Shown here: one piece after another, positions 7,083-53,070 of the stretch
How the letters are laid out: each line of letters begins with the position of its first letter
Position numbering within the stretch: the first letter of the stretch is position 1
Origin: Clostridia bacterium
GTDB lineage: Bacteria > Bacillota > Clostridia > Oscillospirales > CAG-272
NCBI GenBank assembly: GCA_017461765.1
Contig: JAFTXO010000024.1
Coordinates: 1 to 62,641, forward strand
Direction: 5' to 3'
Length of the DNA stretch: 62,641 nucleotides
The notes under the pieces: model-generated
What the model was told of the DNA's origin: nothing
Databases searched by the model: none
What the model saw: only the letters and a program-made list of their open reading frames with translations
Translations under genes and position numbers: made by a program

Positions 7083-7832
7083 ATGGAAAACAAAAGATCG
7101 AATTTTTGCTTTTTGAGCGGTAATGCGCTTAAATTTATAGCCGCATTTTGTATGCTTCTTGACCATATCGGAGTTATGCTGATCGATAACGTGGCTTTGC
7201 GCTTTATCGGTCGCTTGGCGCTTCCTATCTTTGCTTATATGATAGCTGAGGGCTGCAAGTATACAAAAAACAGGCTTCGCTATTTTCTTTCGGTATTTTC
7301 ATTGGCAGCGCTCTGTCAGATAGCGTATTTTGTTTTTGCACATGATACGAGTATGTGTATTCTTGTTACATTCTCCATCTCGATAGCAACCGTCTACGCG
7401 CTCGATTTTTTGAAAAATTCTATTTTTGCGTACAAGAAAAGTGCTTTTAAGATAGGGCTTGGCGTATTTTTATTCGTTTCGGCGATTGCTATGGCTATTG
7501 TTTTAAACCACTTTTTCGTAATAGAATACAAATTCTGGGGTTGTATGCTTCCTGTTGCGGTGAGTCTCTTTCACACTCCGAAGGAAAACGCGCCCGCGAT
7601 ATTCAAAACGCTCGATACCGTTCCTTTCAAAGTTCTGATGCTCGGAATTTGTCTTGTTTTCGTAACACTTACTGCTCGTTTGGGTGCTGAGATACAATGG
7701 TTTTCATTTTTGGCGTTGCCGCTTTTACTTCTTTATTCGGGAAAGCGCGGCAAGCTTAGGACAAAATATTTTTTCTATATTTTCTATCCCGTTCACCTTT
7801 TGGTGCTTGAGGGAATTTCAATGATCATTTAA
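7083..7832 (+). CDS. TraX-like integral membrane protein
   Basis: 249 aa from the ATG behind SD GAAGGGGG; an earlier in-frame ATG at 6993 has no SD and precedes the promoter. The N-terminus SGNALKFIAAFCMLLDHIG is the hallmark of the TraX family (PF05857), which includes F-pilin acetylase TraX. There are about seven or eight membrane helices. Chromosomal clostridial members have no known substrate; an acyltransferase role is only inferred. The next gene starts 10 bp later. Confidence 0.8.
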   Translation: MENKRSNFCFLSGNALKFIAAFCMLLDHIGVMLIDNVALRFIGRLALPIFAYMIAEGCKYTKNRLRYFLSVFSLAALCQIAYFVFAHDTSMCILVTFSISIATVYALDFLKNSIFAYKKSAFKIGLGVFLFVSAIAMAIVLNHFFVIEYKFWGCMLPVAVSLFHTPKENAPAIFKTLDTVPFKVLMLGICLVFVTLTARLGAEIQWFSFLALPLLLLYSGKRGKLRTKYFFYIFYPVHLLVLEGISMII

Positions 7833-7842
7833 GGAGTAAATT

Positions 7843-8283
7843 ATGACAAGAGCTGAACAGGCAAGAGAATTTTTCAAGCAAGGCTATACCTGCTCGCAGG
7901 CTGTAGCGCTTGCGTTTGCGGATCTTTGTAAAATCGACACTGAGGAGCTTAAAAACATGATGCTTCCCTTCGGCGGCGGTATCGCAAGACTTCGTTTGAC
8001 CTGCGGTGCAGTGAGCGGTATGGTCGCAATATCGGGGCTTCTCTTTGGAAATGAAACCGAAAATAAATTGAAAATGTACGAGCTTACAAGAGCTCTTTGT
8101 GAAAAATTTCAAGAGAAAAACGGAAGCCTTATCTGCGCTGAGCTTTTAAGCGGTGCAAGCATAAAGCCCACCGTCGGCGGTGCGCCCGAGGAAAGAAATG
8201 AACAATATTATAAAAAGCGTCCTTGTCACGAGCTTGTTTACGATGCCGCAGAAATATTGGAAAATTATCTTTCAAATAAGTAA
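7843..8283 (+). CDS. C_GCAxxG_C_C family protein
   Basis: 146 aa, putative redox-active protein of PF09719. The defining cysteines are visible: C24 in GYTCSQAVALAF, then LTCGAVSG, the C in LICAELL and C in RPCHELVYDAAEIL. Members often lie near redox or transport genes; function is unproven. SD AAGGAG; operon with the TraX-like gene. Confidence 0.85.
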   Translation: MTRAEQAREFFKQGYTCSQAVALAFADLCKIDTEELKNMMLPFGGGIARLRLTCGAVSGMVAISGLLFGNETENKLKMYELTRALCEKFQEKNGSLICAELLSGASIKPTVGGAPEERNEQYYKKRPCHELVYDAAEILENYLSNK

Positions 8284-47640: not shown

Positions 47641-47682
47641 CAATATTTTTAAAGCATTTAATTAAGTATTTTTTTAATTTTT

Positions 47683-47820
47683 GCACTGTGGCGTGTGCTT
47701 GTATATATAATATACAAGTGGCTCATCTTCGCTCGGGCGAAAAGTTAGAGGTGCCCCTACTCTTGCAAGCAAGAGCAACCGCCACCGTTTATGGTGCTCT
47801 ACGGGTACATCAAGTACCAC
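47683..47820. repeat. GCACTGTGGCG repeat, copy A, with hairpins
   Basis: Starts with GCACTGTGGCGTGTGCTTGT and continues into CTTGTATATA-TAA-TATACAAG, then small hairpins TTCGC-tcgg-GCGAA, CTCTTGC-aa-GCAAGAG and GGTAC-atcaa-GTACC. Copies B (50109) and C (52641) share the first 26 bp. Non-coding. Confidence 0.7.
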
Positions 47821-47889
47821 GGAAATTATAACATATGCGACAAATTATGTCAATATTAAAACTCAATCGAATAAAAATTTCTTGTTGCA

Positions 47890-47918
47890 TTGACGATAAT
47901 TAAGTGTTAAAATACAGA
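47890..47918 (+). promoter_or_regulatory. Promoter of cassette 1
   Basis: -35 TTGACG, 17-nt spacer, -10 TACAGA. GATAAATAAGAATTTG begins 3 bp after it (47921-47936), near the expected start of transcription. Confidence 0.6.
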
Positions 47919-47920
47919 TA

Positions 47921-47936
47921 GATAAATAAGAATTTG
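47921..47936 (+). repeat. Cassette 1 left motif
   Basis: GATAAATAAGAATTTG. Its reverse complement matches the motif after the GNAT stop (48477-48492) at 12 of 16 positions. Confidence 0.7.
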
Positions 47937-47947
47937 GTGGTGATATT

Positions 47948-48472
47948 ATGTTGCAACTTATTGAAAGATGTCAGAAATATGTATCTGGATACAAAGACTA
48001 TTGTCAAGAACTATATGATAATCATATTATTTATTTTCGTCCCACCAATCCGAATAGCATTGATGATAATTGGTTTTTCCGTACCAAACCATGGTATGAC
48101 AAAAAAGAAAAGGGGCTGATTGAAGGTCAAACTATTAGCTTTCACTATTGGGCAATTGATGACGGGAAATTTATCGGTGAATTCCAACTTCGCCCCCAGC
48201 TTACTGAGAAAGTGCTAACGGATATTGGAAGCATTGGCTATGCAGTAAGAGTGTCGGAATGGGGGAAGGGTTATGGAACAGAAATACTTCGACAAGGCTT
48301 ACTTATTGCCAAAAAACATGGGATGGAAAAGGTTCTGCTAACCATAAATGAAGAAAATGCCGTATCTATTCGTGTGTGTGAGAAATTAGGTGGAGAATTG
48401 CAGGACACAATAGAAGTATATAACAAAGAAGAAGGAAATCATTTGTTGAGACGATATTGGATAAACTTGTGA
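47948..48472 (+). CDS. GNAT-family N-acetyltransferase
   Basis: 174 aa. Acetyl-CoA binding motif A is seen in VRVSEWGKGYGTEILRQGL (R/Q-x-x-G-x-G/A form) and motif B in NEENAVSIRVCEKLGG. It probably acetylates a small amine or drug; substrate unknown (COG3981-like). SD GGTGGTGA. It is the first cassette of the array, with its own promoter. Confidence 0.88.
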   Translation: MLQLIERCQKYVSGYKDYCQELYDNHIIYFRPTNPNSIDDNWFFRTKPWYDKKEKGLIEGQTISFHYWAIDDGKFIGEFQLRPQLTEKVLTDIGSIGYAVRVSEWGKGYGTEILRQGLLIAKKHGMEKVLLTINEENAVSIRVCEKLGGELQDTIEVYNKEEGNHLLRRYWINL

Positions 48473-48476
48473 TTTT

Positions 48477-48626
48477 CAAATTCCAATTTTTAGAGGGAAT
48501 ATATTATGAAACGAGTTGTGAGAAATTAGCCCATAAAAACAAAGGAACGTAAACACCACGGTTTGCGTTTTTTGTTGCGTATTTTAAAATAATGTGATAC
48601 AATATTTATAGATAAATAAGAATTTG
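48477..48626. repeat. Inter-cassette direct repeat, copy 1
   Basis: 150 bp nearly identical (about 10 differences) to 49285-49435. It contains, in order: cassette right motif CAAATTCCAATTTTTAG, an 8-codon ORF MKRVVRN with SD GAGGG (48506-48529), a terminator-like hairpin (CGTAAAC/GTTTGCG plus TTTTTT, about 48548-48573), promoter TTGCGT-17-TACAAT (48575-48603) and the next left motif (48611-48626). Confidence 0.88.
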
Positions 48627-48639
48627 ACTGAGGTATAAA

Positions 48640-49278
48640 ATGAGCACATATATATTGACAAGTATGTTTCATAATGGATTTAATGCACAAACCGCAGAAG
48701 TATTACGACAGAAGATAGGTAAAAGAAACAGGTTTGCATTTGTAGCATCTGAGTTTCAAAAAGGATATGAAAAGACAGATATGTATTTTCGTTTCTTTTT
48801 GAATATGTTTGAAGAAGCTGATATTCATTTTGAAGAAGCATCCGTCATCGATGGAAGAATTAAAATGGATGAGGCTCAAAAAAAGGTTGCAGAAGCGGAC
48901 GTAATATGGCTGTCGGGCGGCGATACTCCCACTCAGTTCCGCTATTTTCAAGAATATGGTTTAGATACAGTTATTAAGCAACATAATGGAGTTATCATAG
49001 GGATGAGTGCTGGGTCTATTAATATGGCGAAAACGTCAATATGCACATCGTCCTGTGGGCACTATAATCAGAAAATTTATAATGGTCTTGCTTGTGTTGA
49101 TATTTCTGTTGAGCCTCATTTTGTTAGAGACCATGTATCCAATGAATTATTAGATTTATCTATGAAATATATTATTTATGGATTGTGTGATGATAGCTTT
49201 ATTATATGTTCAGAAAAAGCAATTGAGTTTTATGGAGAAATATATAAGCTGAGCAATGGAATTATAGAAAGGTTATGA
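48640..49278 (+). CDS. Peptidase family S51-like (peptidase E)
   Basis: 212 aa, class I glutamine-amidotransferase-like fold. The nucleophile serine is in IIGMSAGSINM; WLSGGDTPTQF supplies the oxyanion loop and VEPHFVRDH the histidine. S51 enzymes cleave Asp-X dipeptides or cyanophycin derivatives. SD GAGG. It is cassette 2, enclosed by the two 150-bp repeats. Confidence 0.88.
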   Translation: MSTYILTSMFHNGFNAQTAEVLRQKIGKRNRFAFVASEFQKGYEKTDMYFRFFLNMFEEADIHFEEASVIDGRIKMDEAQKKVAEADVIWLSGGDTPTQFRYFQEYGLDTVIKQHNGVIIGMSAGSINMAKTSICTSSCGHYNQKIYNGLACVDISVEPHFVRDHVSNELLDLSMKYIIYGLCDDSFIICSEKAIEFYGEIYKLSNGIIERL

Positions 49279-49284
49279 TTACAA

Positions 49285-49435
49285 CAAATTCCAATTTTTA
49301 GAGGGAATATATTATGAAACGAGTTGTGAGAAATTAGCCCATAAAAACAACGAAGCGTAAACATCACGGTTTGCGTTTTTTTGTTGTGTATATTAAAATA
49401 ATGTGATACAATATTGTTAGATAAATAAGAATATG
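49285..49435. repeat. Inter-cassette direct repeat, copy 2
   Basis: Second copy of the 150-bp segment with the same order: right motif (49285-49301), MKRVVRN ORF (49314-49337), hairpin GCGTAAAC/GTTTGCG with T-run, promoter TTGTGT-17-TACAAT (49384-49412) and left motif GATAAATAAGAATATG (49420-49435). Confidence 0.88.
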
Positions 49436-49447
49436 TGGAGGTCAAAA

Positions 49448-50035
49448 ATGAAAGATTTTATATTTGTTACGGGAGCAAGTGGTATAGGCAAAACAACATT
49501 GTGTAACGGATTGCTTGAGCATTATAAAACAACATGTGTAGAGCAACATATGATACCTGAGTTCATCTCACGAGATGGCACCGAGCCGATGACAGGAGAA
49601 CTTGAAGAGCTTACTTGTTGGGAAAATCAAGTAGCAATGCTTATGTGTTTTCATAGGTTAGGTTATAAAAATATAATCGCTTCTGATGTTGACGATTTAA
49701 GAACGGCAGATATTCCTGTTGTTTTTAAAGGAACTAATTTCATCACAATAAAACTTATATGTAGCGATTTACATCAAATTCAGGAACAGATGAAAAATAG
49801 ACCTAATAACGGACTTATAGATTATGAATTGCAAAAAAAGATGAATGAGAAAAATATTAAGCGAAATCCTCTTGTCAACGAAGTAGAAATTGATGTCGCA
49901 GGTAAATCAATTGAAGAGGTACTTGAACAAGCCATAAATATTATAGATACTGCATCATCTCTTCTTGAATATGAATACACAAAACCGCCAAAAGAGATGT
50001 TTTATTCATGGGTTTTTGCAAATGGATTAAGATAA
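49448..50035 (+). CDS. P-loop kinase-like ATPase
   Basis: 195 aa from ATG 49448 (GGAGGT 5 nt upstream; the earlier ATG 49433 is before the SD). Walker A GASGIGKTTL is at 9-18, a possible Walker B/acceptor region in IIASDVDDLR, and an R-rich lid (MKNRPNNGLIDYELQKK). It resembles small nucleoside- or shikimate-kinase-type P-loop proteins; substrate unknown. Cassette 3. Confidence 0.75.
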   Translation: MKDFIFVTGASGIGKTTLCNGLLEHYKTTCVEQHMIPEFISRDGTEPMTGELEELTCWENQVAMLMCFHRLGYKNIIASDVDDLRTADIPVVFKGTNFITIKLICSDLHQIQEQMKNRPNNGLIDYELQKKMNEKNIKRNPLVNEVEIDVAGKSIEEVLEQAINIIDTASSLLEYEYTKPPKEMFYSWVFANGLR

Positions 50036-50048
50036 ATCCTAATTTATA
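50033..50048 (+). repeat. Cassette 3 right motif (degenerate)
   Basis: TAAATCCTAATTTATA begins at the base before the kinase stop ends and matches the reverse complement of the left motif at 11 of 16 positions. Confidence 0.45.
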
Positions 50049-50108
50049 GAGCTGTGTAATTGAATTTAAAACCCAACATAAATATAAATATGAATTTTCT
50101 ATGAAATG

Positions 50109-50225
50109 GCACTGTGGCGTGTGCTTGTATATATAAATGGCTCAGGTTGACTTTCCCTTGGTAAGAAAAGTTAGAGTTACCCAACTCTCGCAAGCGAGAG
50201 GATGTGGGAAGGCTCGCAGAGCGAA
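50109..50225. repeat. GCACTGTGGCG repeat, copy B, with hairpins
   Basis: Shares GCACTGTGGCGTGTGCTTGT plus ATATATA with copies A and C, then AAAAGTTAGAG as in copy A. A CTCTCGC-aa-GCGAGAG hairpin and a GCTCGC-aga-GCGA hairpin follow. No ORF. Confidence 0.7.
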
Positions 50226-50240
50226 CTATTTAATAGATAT

Positions 50241-50271
50241 AGGGCTTGATGAACATCAGGCTCTATTTTTT
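50241..50271 (+). terminator. Terminator-like repeat 1
   Basis: AGGGCTTGATG-aa-CATCAGGCTCT followed by ATTTTTT. A near copy lies after the hydrolase gene at 51413-51446. Confidence 0.75.
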
Positions 50272-50297
50272 GCTCTTTTACTCTTACTGCTTTAGGG

Positions 50298-50326
50298 TTG
50301 AAAAGGAATAAGCTTTATGGTATAAT
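50298..50326 (+). promoter_or_regulatory. Promoter for the hydrolase gene
   Basis: -35 TTGAAA, 17-nt spacer, -10 TATAAT. The GATAAATAAGAAT motif is absent here, unlike at the cassettes. Confidence 0.7.
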
Positions 50327-50376
50327 TGTATACAATAAGGAAAAGTGGTAAATTTATCATAGAAAGGATGTTAAGC

Positions 50377-51387
50377 ATGAAATCAGCTTATGAATACAAC
50401 AAGGAATTGATACAAAGGGTTGTCCCGTCGATGTCATATGACGGCGGTGACTTTCAAGAATGGAGAAGTACAGCCAGAAATAAGCTTTCACAGCTTCTGG
50501 GCATGGATAAGTTTGAAAAAGTAAGCCCTGAGTTAAATGTGGAATACCAAAAGAAAATAGAGGGGGCGACAGAGATTCGGTTTACCTATCAGAGTGAGGC
50601 AGGCTACCGTGTGCCCTGTCATTTGTTGCTTCCCGATGGGGTCGAAAAACCGCCTTTGATGATTTGTCTTCAAGGGCACTCCAAAGGAATGCATATTTCC
50701 TTAGGTAGACCTAAATTTGAAGGGGATGAAAAATCCATAAGCGAAGGCGACCGAGATTTTTGTATAAGAGCGCTCAAAGAGGGATTTGCATCAATTTCGT
50801 TAGAGCAGAGAAACTTTGGCGAGTGTGGCGGAAACGAAAACGGACCGAGATGCTACGAGTCAACTATGACAGCTCTTCTTATGGGAAGAACAACTGTAGG
50901 TGAACGTGTATGGGATGCTTTAAGACTGATTGATGTAATTGAATCCGAGTTTAGCGATCGAATTGATACACAAAATATTTGTTGTATGGGAAACTCCGGT
51001 GGTGGCACAGCCACGGTGTACATTGCAGCTTTGGAGGATAGAATTACTCTGGCGATGCCTTCGTGTGCAATGTGCACGTTTAAGGATTCCATCGGTGCAA
51101 TGACTCATTGTTCCTGCAATTACGTGCCGAAAATATCGGAATACTTCGATATGAGCGATCTTATGGCAATGGCATATCCAAAGTATTTTATTCAGGTGTC
51201 GGGAACCAACGACCCAATTTTTCCGTTGCTTGGCGCCGAGCAGGTATTCGAAAAAGGAAAGCAGGCTTATGAATCATGTGGACAAGGTCACCGTTGCACA
51301 CTTGTTAAAGGAAACGGTGGACATAGATTTTATGCCGATGATGCGTGGCCAATTGTACACAAATATCTGAAAAGCACACACGAATAA
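50377..51387 (+). CDS. Alpha/beta hydrolase (esterase-like)
   Basis: 336 aa from ATG 50377, with AAAGGA 9 nt upstream; earlier in-frame ATGs lack an SD. Nucleophile S in CMGNSGGGTA, oxyanion region in CLQGHSKGM, catalytic D in SGTNDPIFPL and H in GNGGHRFYADD. Similar in layout to Abhydrolase_7 / acetyl-esterase-like proteins of 330-400 aa. Cytoplasmic. Could deacylate sugars for the glycosidases in this window (inference). Confidence 0.82.
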   Translation: MKSAYEYNKELIQRVVPSMSYDGGDFQEWRSTARNKLSQLLGMDKFEKVSPELNVEYQKKIEGATEIRFTYQSEAGYRVPCHLLLPDGVEKPPLMICLQGHSKGMHISLGRPKFEGDEKSISEGDRDFCIRALKEGFASISLEQRNFGECGGNENGPRCYESTMTALLMGRTTVGERVWDALRLIDVIESEFSDRIDTQNICCMGNSGGGTATVYIAALEDRITLAMPSCAMCTFKDSIGAMTHCSCNYVPKISEYFDMSDLMAMAYPKYFIQVSGTNDPIFPLLGAEQVFEKGKQAYESCGQGHRCTLVKGNGGHRFYADDAWPIVHKYLKSTHE

Positions 51388-51412
51388 AAAATAGTCAAAT
51401 TTAATATCAGTA

Positions 51413-51446
51413 TAGAGCTTGATGTAAAAGTCAGGCTCTGTTTTTT
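51413..51446 (+). terminator. Terminator-like repeat 2
   Basis: AGAGCTTGATG...GTCAGGCTCT followed by GTTTTTT; near copy of 50241-50271, here ending the hydrolase transcript. Confidence 0.75.
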
Positions 51447-51473
51447 ACCCTACGGAGACAGGGGGACGGTGGT

Positions 51474-51680
51474 GTGTCATAGAGAATGACACAATACTTT
51501 TGCAAGCAAAAGCAAGCGGGAAGGTTCACTTTGTGAACTATTTTGCTAGCAAGCTGACAACGGCTTTAGCCGAAAATGCGAACCCAATTCGTGCAGGCAC
51601 GAAGATGGGTTTGATTCGGTCCATGCGGACCGTCAGCAAAGCAAAAAGGACACTCAATCGAGTGTCCTTTTTGCTTTGCT
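51474..51680. repeat. Row of eight short hairpins
   Basis: Consecutive inverted repeats: GTGTCAT/ATGACAC (51474-51492), CTTTTGC/GCAAAAG (51497-51512), GTTCAC/GTGAAC (51524-51538), TTGCTAGCAA (51543-51552), CGGCT/AGCCG (51561-51572), TTCGTGC/GCACGAA (51588-51603), GGTCC/GGACC (51618-51631), and a perfect 21-bp arm pair (51635-51655 with 51660-51680, loop AATC). Loops are 0-5 nt. No supported gene overlaps it. Confidence 0.85.
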
Positions 51681-51723
51681 GGTGAGCCTTAACCAACCTA
51701 AATCGAACCTTTTTCTACTGCCC

Positions 51724-51739
51724 GATAAATTGGAATTTA
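51724..51739 (-). repeat. Cassette 4 right motif
   Basis: On the minus strand TAAATTCCAATTTATC, sharing its first three bases with the methyltransferase stop codon. It matches the reverse complement of the left motif at 13 of 16 positions. Confidence 0.65.
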
Positions 51740-52534
51740 GAGTTTTCTTGCTAATTGCAAATCAATCGTGTCATAGATTGTTATTGTGCCACCATATTTG
51801 TTAATTGCTTCTTCAATTTTCGAGAAGAATTTAGTTCTGATTGTTTCTTCGATAGCAATATGGTCTGAATAAGTTCCTAACAGTTCAATATACTCTTTTG
51901 CAGAAAAAACACGCTCACGATGGAATAAAGCATATTGAATATCTGTAAAACCGTATTTTTCTGCAATCAATGCACGGTCTTTTGCTTGGGCTTCTGTATA
52001 TTCAGTTAAAACCTCACGTTTCTTTTTGTGAAACTTATTGTAGTATTTATCATAGATTTCATCTATCTCTGCCGATAATTTGGGATTGCCCTTATCTCTA
52101 TATGGATGATTTGCAAATCGTGCAAAAGCTCCACCACTTTTCAGTATGTTCCGCACTTTGTTGTATCCAATTTCCTCTGGAACCCAATGAAAGGCAGAGG
52201 CAGAAAACACTAAGTCAAAAACATTATCTTCAAATTGTGTATTTTCAAATTTACCAGTGATTACGGAAAACCTTGGAAATTCCCTGAATTTTTCTTTTAA
52301 GAGTTCTGAAAAATGTTCACCATATTCCACAGCTGTCAAGTGACATCCCGTTGTTAACATCGGGGCGGTTGCTTGTCCTCCACCACTTCCAATTTCAAGC
52401 ACATTACTATTATCATCAATTGAAATGTAATTGAATATTATTTGATACAACTCAGCAACATAGCCAGGACGCAATTTCTCGTATGTGGACGCTACTGTAT
52501 CAAATGTCCACTCTAATCCTTTAAGTATTGACAT
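51737..52534 (-). CDS. Class I SAM-dependent methyltransferase
   Basis: 265 aa. Motif I is VLEIGSGGGQATAPM (SAM-binding glycine loop), motif II acid in TAVEYGE, motif IV FDLVFSASAFHWVP. The N-terminus (FDTVASTYEKLRPGYVAELY) is typical of small-molecule methyltransferases near COG2226. Substrate unknown. SD GAAGGTG. Cassette 4, inverted relative to the other three. Confidence 0.9.
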   Translation of the reverse strand: MSILKGLEWTFDTVASTYEKLRPGYVAELYQIIFNYISIDDNSNVLEIGSGGGQATAPMLTTGCHLTAVEYGEHFSELLKEKFREFPRFSVITGKFENTQFEDNVFDLVFSASAFHWVPEEIGYNKVRNILKSGGAFARFANHPYRDKGNPKLSAEIDEIYDKYYNKFHKKKREVLTEYTEAQAKDRALIAEKYGFTDIQYALFHRERVFSAKEYIELLGTYSDHIAIEETIRTKFFSKIEEAINKYGGTITIYDTIDLQLARKL

Positions 52535-52547
52535 AACAACACACCTT

Positions 52548-52563
52548 CAAATTCTTATTTATC
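52548..52563 (-). repeat. Cassette 4 left motif
   Basis: GATAAATAAGAATTTG on the minus strand, identical to the left motifs of cassettes 1 and 2 although this gene lies 3 kb away in the opposite orientation. Confidence 0.75.
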
Positions 52564-52572
52564 GGTGAGCTT

Positions 52573-52601
52573 ATTATACCATACTTTTGAAAATAATTCA
52601 A
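52573..52601 (-). promoter_or_regulatory. Promoter of cassette 4
   Basis: -35 TTGAAT, 17-nt spacer, -10 TATAAT on the minus strand; the left motif starts 9 bp after the -10. Confidence 0.75.
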
Positions 52602-52640
52602 TCTTTTGGACATAGAGAAAAACAAAAATTTTATTTAATG

Positions 52641-52677
52641 GCACTGTGGCGTGTGCTTGTATATATACAAGTGGCTA
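52641..52677. repeat. GCACTGTGGCG repeat, copy C (short)
   Basis: GCACTGTGGCGTGTGCTTGT, then ATATATACAAGTGGCT, ending where copies A and B continue with hairpins. It lies between the methyltransferase promoter and the four-helix-bundle gene. Confidence 0.7.
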
Positions 52678-52713
52678 GGCTTCGCAAGATATTAAAAAAG
52701 CAAGGTTGATTTT

Positions 52714-53070
52714 TCAGCCTTGCTTTAATTTGTTTTCAATTGTAATGCAGGAGCTTGTGAGCATTCTTTTAATTCTGCCACAAAGGTTTCTTGATTTTTT
52801 GAATGTGATTTCATCAATAGCCTCAGTGGAAAAGAGAAGCTTTAGCCAACTTTCAGTTTCTGCACATTCCTTTCGTGCAATTTCAAATTTAGAGTGCATA
52901 TCAGCAAGGCTTTGAGGGTATTGAGCTTCGGTTATATTAGCAAACACACTTGAAGATGATTTTTTGATTTGAAAAACAACATTGGAATCAAATTTATTTT
53001 CTTGACATAGCTTTGCAATACTAACAGCTAACTGCTCACTGTATTCTAAAAGCAAGTTTCTTTTAGCCAT
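52714..53070 (-). CDS. Four-helix-bundle protein (23S rRNA IVP / Avd-like)
   Basis: 118 aa, all helical, matching the bacterial IVP/S23 family (TIGR02436): LLEYSEQLAVSIAKLCQ, QIKKSSSSVFANITEAQ, KFEIARKECAETESWLKLL and CGRIKRMLTSSCITIE. The fold is basic and forms pentamers that bind nucleic acid; Avd of diversity-generating retroelements is a relative. No reverse transcriptase or variable repeat is in the window. SD AAGGAG. Immediately downstream of a highly structured element. Confidence 0.88.
   Translation of the reverse strand: MAKRNLLLEYSEQLAVSIAKLCQENKFDSNVVFQIKKSSSSVFANITEAQYPQSLADMHSKFEIARKECAETESWLKLLFSTEAIDEITFKKSRNLCGRIKRMLTSSCITIENKLKQG

Follow-up and report, generated by a model that had tools for sequence, protein, structure and literature searches.

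Probable mobile single-gene cassettes with site-specific exchange at dispersed platforms in gut Clostridia

The window analysed here, a stretch of 62,641 nucleotides (nt) from a Clostridia bacterium (contig JAFTXO010000024.1), carries four open reading frames (ORFs), each of which is preceded by the motif GATAAATAAGAATWTG and ends at a CAAATTCCAATTTWTA-like motif. Comparative sequence evidence indicates that these ORFs probably belong to a system of mobile single-gene cassettes that reside in dispersed platforms of gut Clostridia and undergo site-specific exchange. In the proposed mechanism, a single promoterless gene, composed of AATTTG, a ribosome site, the ORF with its stop codon and CAAATTCC, would move between genomic platforms. 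A platform would begin with a promoter, with a structured leader or with a chromosomal gene end, continue with (TC)GATAAATAAG/AATTTRTCGA (the slash marks the breakpoint throughout) and often close with a terminator. Cassettes follow one another head to tail, meeting directly at CAAATTCC/AATTTG or via spacers. A tyrosine recombinase might act on a shared 5-bp crossover, AATTT, flanked by short inverted arms that match imperfectly (YAAAT....ATTTR), and the captured gene would be expressed from the platform promoter. In the open-access literature, which excludes most subscription journals, none of the papers listed described a system of this kind in Clostridia, and none was found with any of the three motif strings.

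The putative cassette boundaries, GATAAATAAG/AATTTG at the 5′ side and CAAATTCC/AATTT at the 3′ side, emerge from the comparison of similar bodies in differing flanks. In five body families (L125, L129 and L141; L140, L142 and L146; L100 and L133; L109 and L119; seven VOC-like bodies; here L stands for locus, G for genome and C for contig, and identical bodies were counted once), the shared sequence spans exactly this interval, and nothing recognisable is held in common beyond it in the 35-40 nt compared. Conversely, left and right flanks are common to unrelated bodies; one such group, with a leader and a terminator, numbers up to twelve loci. The segment from AATTTG through the ORF to CAAATTCC would thus be the moving part, with GATAAATAAG and RTCGA left behind as the platform. 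An earlier note on this DNA, made from the window alone, had the motifs move with the genes; this has to be corrected, since only the inner segment appears to move while the outer parts belong to the receiving platform. A promoter often lies on the GATAAATAAG side (in 37 of 87 left flanks, against a mean of 2.5 after shuffling), and a terminator often on the RTCGA side (in 27 of 81 right flanks, against a mean of 0.5). The left flanks of L011, L047, L112, L118, L121, L129, L143, L148 and L154 share a conserved leader, about 75 nt long, which contains two small hairpins but no evident promoter; in the seven of these flanks that were scanned, no Rfam family reached the gathering cut-off. Rfam scans of 16 cassette loci gave tRNAs and one Gut-1 RNA only, and a Gut-1 RNA (RF01706) is located just downstream of a cassette platform in L138 (959-1034).

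The junctions are consistent with modules linked in series at /AATTT. Left halves end in YAAATTCC when they belong to a gene and in YAAATAAG when they belong to a platform, and right halves start with AATTTG in genes or with AATTTRTCGA in platforms. As a whole, the site forms an imperfect palindrome, YAAAT....ATTTR, which in many platforms is lengthened to TCGAYAAAT....ATTTRTCGA. Clear direct gene-gene junctions were seen in L027, L111, L116, L140, L146 and L199. Because of these head-to-tail /AATTT joints and the imperfectly palindromic site, we favour site-specific recombination over homologous exchange or transposition.

The content of one and the same site varies between species. The gene end of a CoA-disulfide-reductase-like protein has GATAAATAAG at its stop codon in all nine readable genomes of one genus, and the motif was not found at the stop of 10 readable, more divergent reductase-like matches (the CoA-disulfide reductase, VOC, TfoX, SGNH and amidohydrolase names were assigned by eye, with no family search). 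At least five different contents occupy this site, which by eye are VOC-like genes (two), methyltransferases (two), a TfoX-like gene, an SGNH-like gene, a small membrane protein gene and one that was not identified; the ninth site, in G026, holds no extra cassette. In G026, GATAAATAAG is followed by AATTAACGAGG and then by the gene that in G008, G001 and G016 lies past the insert, the latter ending with CAAATTCC/AATTTAACGAGG directly ahead of it. As the gene after the G026 site itself starts like a cassette, newer cassettes seem to have entered ahead of an older one. The G016 insert (L176, 1258-3860) comprises a VOC-like cassette and a Ktr-like potassium transporter gene pair ending in CAAATTCC, which suggests that multi-gene cassettes exist. 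Vacant-looking platforms were found in L188/L023 and in L213, and the left flank of L188/L023 is 89% identical to that of a filled platform.

Similar cassettes also occur in different bacterial families. A kinase cassette in G053 and G049 shows 88.5% DNA identity across a 496-nt stretch that begins with the first base of the cassette, whereas the Xer proteins of these two genomes are 44% identical. Two further cross-family pairs, both read at short contig ends, have 86 of 87 nt (L038 and L216) and 112 of 112 nt (L043 and L219) of cassette sequence in common, and mis-binning may account for either.

We catalogued 89 cassettes of 68 protein families in Clostridia; since an ORF with both motifs was the criterion of selection, their geometry is partly imposed. 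Each cassette is a single ORF cut down to ribosome site, coding region and stop, with the start codon 11-20 nt past the 5′ motif in 74 of 89 cases and the stop codon between 3 nt of overlap with the 3′ motif and 6 nt ahead of it in 70. Pfam searches with 68 representatives assigned nine to PF00583 (GNAT), three to methyltransferase models and three to helix-turn-helix models. Among ORFs behind an exact 5′ motif, a 3′ motif stood at the stop codon of 38/43 complete ORFs in loci from a named genome collection, compared with 15/386 of the other ORFs, and of 9/12 in loci from 394 genomes of the order, compared with 2/64. The first set derives from 52 exact 5′ motifs, 7 of them cut by contig ends and 2 without an ORF, and the second from 26, with 11 cut and 3 without an ORF. 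Since the pattern used for the named collection demanded GGAGG, only the 3′ result is unbiased there. In L127 (minus strand, 7438-7860) two near-identical short cassettes form a tandem pair in which both have a GATAAATAAG/AATTTG start of their own, possibly as a fresh duplication.

As proposed by the earlier note, related Clostridia were searched for the 5′ motif. At no more than one mismatch it occurs in 39 of 57 relatives, with 5 hits in total for a reversed-letter control, and the exact 16-mer is present in 52 of 394 genomes of the order, distributed over eleven families (control, 0), which is far more than chance would give. The stricter, GGAGG-containing pattern retrieved 49 stretches from the named collection, all from metagenome-assembled genomes (MAGs) labelled Clostridia, Oscillospiraceae or other Bacillota (one Bacilli), and many of them came from the guts of sheep, deer, cattle, goat or buffalo. 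Nearly all genomes compared in this study are MAGs. In viral contigs, the cassette patterns gave 0 and 1 hit. The source genome (1.65 Mb) contains one further exact GATAAATAAGAATWTG, within an ORF on C11, and three more 3′ motifs after ORFs (C24, C36 and C49) with a decayed or uncertain 5′ motif. With so few further places, the motif is no general expression signal. The suggestion that the motifs are ends of a mobile cassette has held up: the pair is absent from most genes, is found at few genes per genome and, at one site, encloses a content that varies between species.

The window block is organised as follows; junctions are motif matches, and ORFs are taken from the ORF list with Pfam assignments for cassettes 1, 2 and 4.

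47885..47930, plus strand: left platform of cassette 1, with promoter TTGCAT N17 TAAAAT (by eye) and left half-site GATAAATAAG
47921..47936, plus strand: 5′ junction of cassette 1, GATAAATAAG/AATTTG
47948..48472, plus strand: cassette 1 ORF, GNAT acetyltransferase, 174 amino acids (aa)
48477..48492, plus strand: 3′ junction of cassette 1, CAAATTCC/AATTTTTA
48485..48620, plus strand: platform between cassettes 1 and 2, with terminator hairpin at about 48542-48573 (−12.9 kcal/mol), promoter and left half-site
48611..48626, plus strand: 5′ junction of cassette 2
48640..49278, plus strand: cassette 2 ORF, peptidase S51 family, 212 aa
49285..49300, plus strand: 3′ junction of cassette 2, CAAATTCC/AATTTTTA
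49293..49429, plus strand: platform between cassettes 2 and 3, with terminator (hairpin −14.3 kcal/mol), promoter and left half-site
49420..49435, plus strand: 5′ junction of cassette 3, GATAAATAAG/AATATG
49448..50035, plus strand: cassette 3 ORF, P-loop/AAA kinase-like (below Pfam gathering cut-offs), 195 aa
50033..50048, plus strand: 3′ junction of cassette 3, TAAATCCT/AATTTATA, overlapping the stop codon
51724..51739, minus strand: 3′ junction of cassette 4, TAAATTCC/AATTTATC, overlapping the stop codon
51737..52534, minus strand: cassette 4 ORF, class I methyltransferase, 265 aa
52548..52563, minus strand: 5′ junction of cassette 4, GATAAATAAG/AATTTG
52554..52601, minus strand: left platform of cassette 4, with promoter TTGAAT N17 TATAAT 9 nt ahead of the left half-site

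The four cassettes and their near-inverted motif pairs described in the earlier note were recovered at exact positions, with GATAAATAAGAATWTG at 47921, 48611 and 49420 (plus strand) and 52548 (minus strand) and the 3′ motif at 48477, 49285, 50033 and 51724 (the last on the minus strand), 4 nt past the stop in cassette 1 and 6 nt past it in cassette 2. Three of the four gene identities were supported by Pfam, and that of the P-loop kinase was weak. The claimed promoters with 17-nt spacing were likewise seen by eye (TTGCAT/TAAAAT, TTGCGT/TACAAT, TTGTGT/TACAAT and TTGAAT/TATAAT for cassettes 1 to 4, −35 and −10 hexamers separated here by the slash), at 7, 7, 7 and 9 nt from the 5′ motif rather than 3-9 nt; a simple promoter scorer agreed for cassette 4 only and ranked other weak pairs highest for cassettes 1-3. 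Searched loosely, the motif is in modest excess in the window (10 matches at three or fewer mismatches versus 5.1 expected). The two intercassette platforms have a length of about 136 nt and repeat one another directly (in a 97-nt stretch with 96% and a 59-nt stretch with 92% identity), and a near-identical copy of the left flank of cassette 1 precedes another cassette in the relative G011 (L016). No DNA match to positions 47890-50060 was found in plasmid and phage sequences, and an Rfam scan of the window returned one tRNA and otherwise only matches under the gathering cut-off.

Other features surround the block. A dispersed, MITE-like (miniature inverted-repeat transposable element) repeat, GGCACTGTGGCGTGTGCTTGTATATATA, adjoins the cassette block (47656-47732), cassette 3 (50082-50151) and cassette 4 (52614-52685); similar repeats lie to the right of cassettes in L030, L091 and L093, the last with an inverted copy as well. 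A perfect 22-bp inverted repeat with a 4-nt loop (51634-51681) is placed between a hydrolase gene and cassette 4. Between cassette 4 and the tRNA genes, positions 52714-53070 encode a member of the 23S rRNA intervening-sequence protein family (PF05635).

Several observations weigh against the proposed mobility. All evidence is comparative, and neither a circular intermediate nor movement has been seen. Mis-binning is possible because nearly all genomes are MAGs. Vacant platforms are rare, with one candidate (G004) in 116 genomes and a second (G256) found by other means, and the right flank of the vacant L188 is only weakly like those of filled platforms. The clean emptiness of the G026 site is doubtful, since the gene that follows has a cassette-like start and a T is lacking; the site may instead hold a mutated first cassette. 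The 5′-motif matches in L001, L009, L018, L028, L029, L033 and L036 are not cassettes, and those in L013, L015 and the second in L035 precede an amidohydrolase-like gene that lacks a 3′ motif. That gene sits behind GATAAATATGAATTTG and is perhaps a fixed former cassette. Finally, most cassettes have no adjoining recombinase, and none of the neighbour families recurring in three or more of the 89 loci is a recombinase by eye. If the element discussed below is considered, five loci, two of them cut inside the integrase, leave room for an element that merely inserts at these sites.

Recombinase genes were searched in 27 cassette-bearing genomes. The tyrosine recombinase domain PF00589 was present in 25 of the 26 other genomes and in the source genome, and the serine recombinase domain PF00239 in 22 of the 27. 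A serine recombinase as universal enzyme was ruled out, as PF00239 was not found in G003, G267, G135, G187 and G198. When PF00589 hits were compared with cassette positions, integrase pieces adjoined some cassettes, and in five loci an /AATTT site lies just past the gene of one 431-aa tyrosine integrase family. Four of these loci come from two bacterial families: G011 (L169, 431 aa), G175 (L295), G345 (L296) and G135 (L322, 431 aa). Their integrases, cut by the contig end in L295 and L296, are 90-92% identical over the overlapping parts, and the cassette 3′ site starts 121-132 nt after the integrase stop, the DNA in between being conserved as far as a TTAGAG-like block. The fifth, L358, is an Agathobacter rectalis record annotated as a plasmid, in which a 66%-identical integrase resides in a MobA/MobL element and is followed by ATAAATCAG/AATTTATAGGAGG, a ribosome site and a small zinc-ribbon gene that is similar to the cassette of L084. 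The distance from the TTAGAG-like block to /AATTT is 19 nt (L169, L322 and L358) or 29 nt (L295 and L296), and this fixed spacing in five loci indicates that the end of the integrase element coincides with the cassette site. A MobA/MobL gene also stands alongside the integrase in L169, so that the family is borne by visibly mobilizable elements in two of the five loci. The site neighbour in L322 is an epimerase gene, with a mirrored-centre site. Judged from these arrangements, the integrase family of MobA/MobL mobilizable elements appears to be at least a user of the cassette site, and it is the best candidate for the cassette-moving enzyme, with the balance for and against about even. The claim that no recombinase is nearby was borne out by eye for the ORFs of the 44-56 kb region of the window, but elsewhere an integrase family adjoins these sites. 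Within 1.5 kb past the stop of 96 integrase ORFs with a readable stop, some from overlapping loci, only chance-like one-mismatch sites were seen beyond the four family loci, and the viral contigs contained no match to the family. Two other tyrosine recombinases, with about 26% mutual identity, lie about 0.45 kb (L293, 7099-8745; G357) and 0.75 kb (L294, 257-2068; G308) away from a 5′ motif in divergent orientation, the arrangement of intI in integrons; their placement may be coincidence.

A less probable but serious alternative is that the cassettes are mobile as described, whereas the integrase element is only a parasite of their sites and another enzyme moves them. This would fit the scarcity of adjoining integrases, and a precedent is provided by insertion sequences that are reported to target pdif sites (PMC10132070). 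It fits less well with the element end being held at a fixed distance from /AATTT in 5/5 loci, and with the cassette-like unit of L358 that starts at this very point.

Host Xer recombinases, as proposed for Acinetobacter dif modules, are a rather improbable source of the activity. A Xer-type protein (at least about 45% identity to the Xer proteins of the genus and relatives) was found in 22 of the 26 other cassette-bearing genomes and in the source genome, and in G398, which is 98% complete, Xer is the only PF00589 protein. However, the best PF00589 loci of G187, G198 and G199, to which the check was confined in these genomes, are not Xer-type, and G203 has no PF00589 hit; Xer is therefore the weaker candidate. 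Moreover, the inner half-sites retain TTTG alone, and dif was not found with a Firmicutes pattern, whose matches in 13 of 57 genomes did not exceed those of its control.

We give little credence to an ordinary conserved expression or mRNA end signal that is inherited with the genes and closes the transcript through its paired ends. The earlier note had considered complementary mRNA ends, and predicted pairing is indeed frequent: after omission of 10 of the 89 cassettes as too long, the ends paired over at least 6 bp in 68 of 79 folds, compared with 17 of 79 when the 3′ end was shuffled. The pair is also often flanked by a promoter and a terminator. Changes within the stem are almost all one-sided, though, so covariation lends no support to the pairing, which may simply result from the site being an imperfect palindrome; some function of the paired ends is possible. 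As a sole explanation the expression signal is refuted by the association test of the motif pair and by cross-family cassette identity, and it sits badly with the few genes per genome, with one gene family standing under different promoters and with the varying content of one site.

RecA-type homologous exchange between repeated platforms, carrying the genes along, is similarly improbable. Platform sequences are common to several loci, but in body pairs with differing flanks the divergence reaches the motif on both sides and leaves 10-16 bp of homology, the very breakpoint pattern expected to refute such exchange. Nor do we expect a non-autonomous transposon bounded by terminal inverted repeats (a MITE or mobile insertion cassette) with its transposase in trans. 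The near-inverted motifs and the AATTT repeat, readable as a 5-bp target duplication, would suit it; it was rejected because GATAAATAAG and RTCGA stay with the flank instead of moving with the element. The ends that remain have 6 bp in common, insertion is confined to one short site, and none of the families that recur beside the 89 loci was recognised as a transposase. Least probable of all is a degenerate integron array that has lost its integrase (CALIN, cluster of attC sites lacking integron-integrase): single promoterless ORFs, head-to-tail arrays and the R''-L''-spacer-L'-R' order around intercassette DNA recall it, but it was rejected for want of an integron integrase (TIGR02249) above cut-off in the 27 genomes, and its site core and mobile unit differ as set out below. 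Five Xer proteins scored 86-100 bits in this model against a cut-off of 265.

If mobile cassettes of this kind exist, they would explain the passage of small accessory genes such as acetyltransferases, methyltransferases, kinases, VOC-like proteins and regulators between families, and the catalogue would be a list of exchanged genes. They also raise a testable question, namely whether the integrase of a mobilizable element joins /AATTT sites.

Among known systems, mobile insertion cassettes and MITEs share with the cassettes a passenger gene between near-inverted ends; here the ends lie largely outside the moving unit and the target is site-specific. The dif (pdif) modules of Acinetobacter, attributed to XerC/XerD, likewise carry accessory genes between short, inversely related sites and no recombinase of their own. 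These modules are reported to have complete dif sites at their ends and to occur mostly on plasmids (PMC6449649, PMC13141974). In contrast, complete dif-like sites were not found at both ends of the clostridial cassettes, whose genes are bounded by half-sites alone, and the contigs of most loci look chromosomal. Mobilizable elements with a tyrosine integrase and a MobA/MobL relaxase resemble the system in that the integrase gene ends beside an /AATTT site in five loci; the cassettes differ in holding one ORF each and neither integrase nor relaxase.

A further parallel is the integron. Integrons are known mainly from Gram-negative bacteria, and their attC sites have a G/TTRRRY core, RYYYAAC and GTTRRRY boxes and the order R''-L''-spacer-L'-R' around intercassette DNA. 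Both systems use promoterless single-ORF cassettes, a platform promoter, head-to-tail arrays and imperfect palindromic sites with a crossover at the spacer-side edge of the R box, G/AATTTG here and G/TTRRRY in integrons. In our model, the ends of a whole single-stranded cassette could pair into L and R boxes separated by a 2x2 spacer, like a folded attC turned inside out with the gene as the loop. Unlike integrons, the clostridial cassettes come without IntI in the 27 genomes, are scattered over many platforms and have G/AATTTG and CAAATTC in place of RYYYAAC/GTTRRRY boxes, bearing in mind that the 89 catalogued cassettes were selected by those motifs. Their gene bodies move without an intercassette segment, and the spacers can hold a terminator and a promoter. 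The primary integron site lies by intI; here the site is not beside IntI, but in five loci it is adjoined by a tyrosine integrase of another type, while no integrase is near most cassettes. The cassettes would thus work like an integron and yet fall outside integrons by integrase and site. With chances that we judge evenly divided, they represent a separate capture system, in which dispersed platforms trap promoterless genes at a 13-22-bp site that is also the attachment site of a mobilizable element, whose tyrosine integrase would move both itself and the cassettes.

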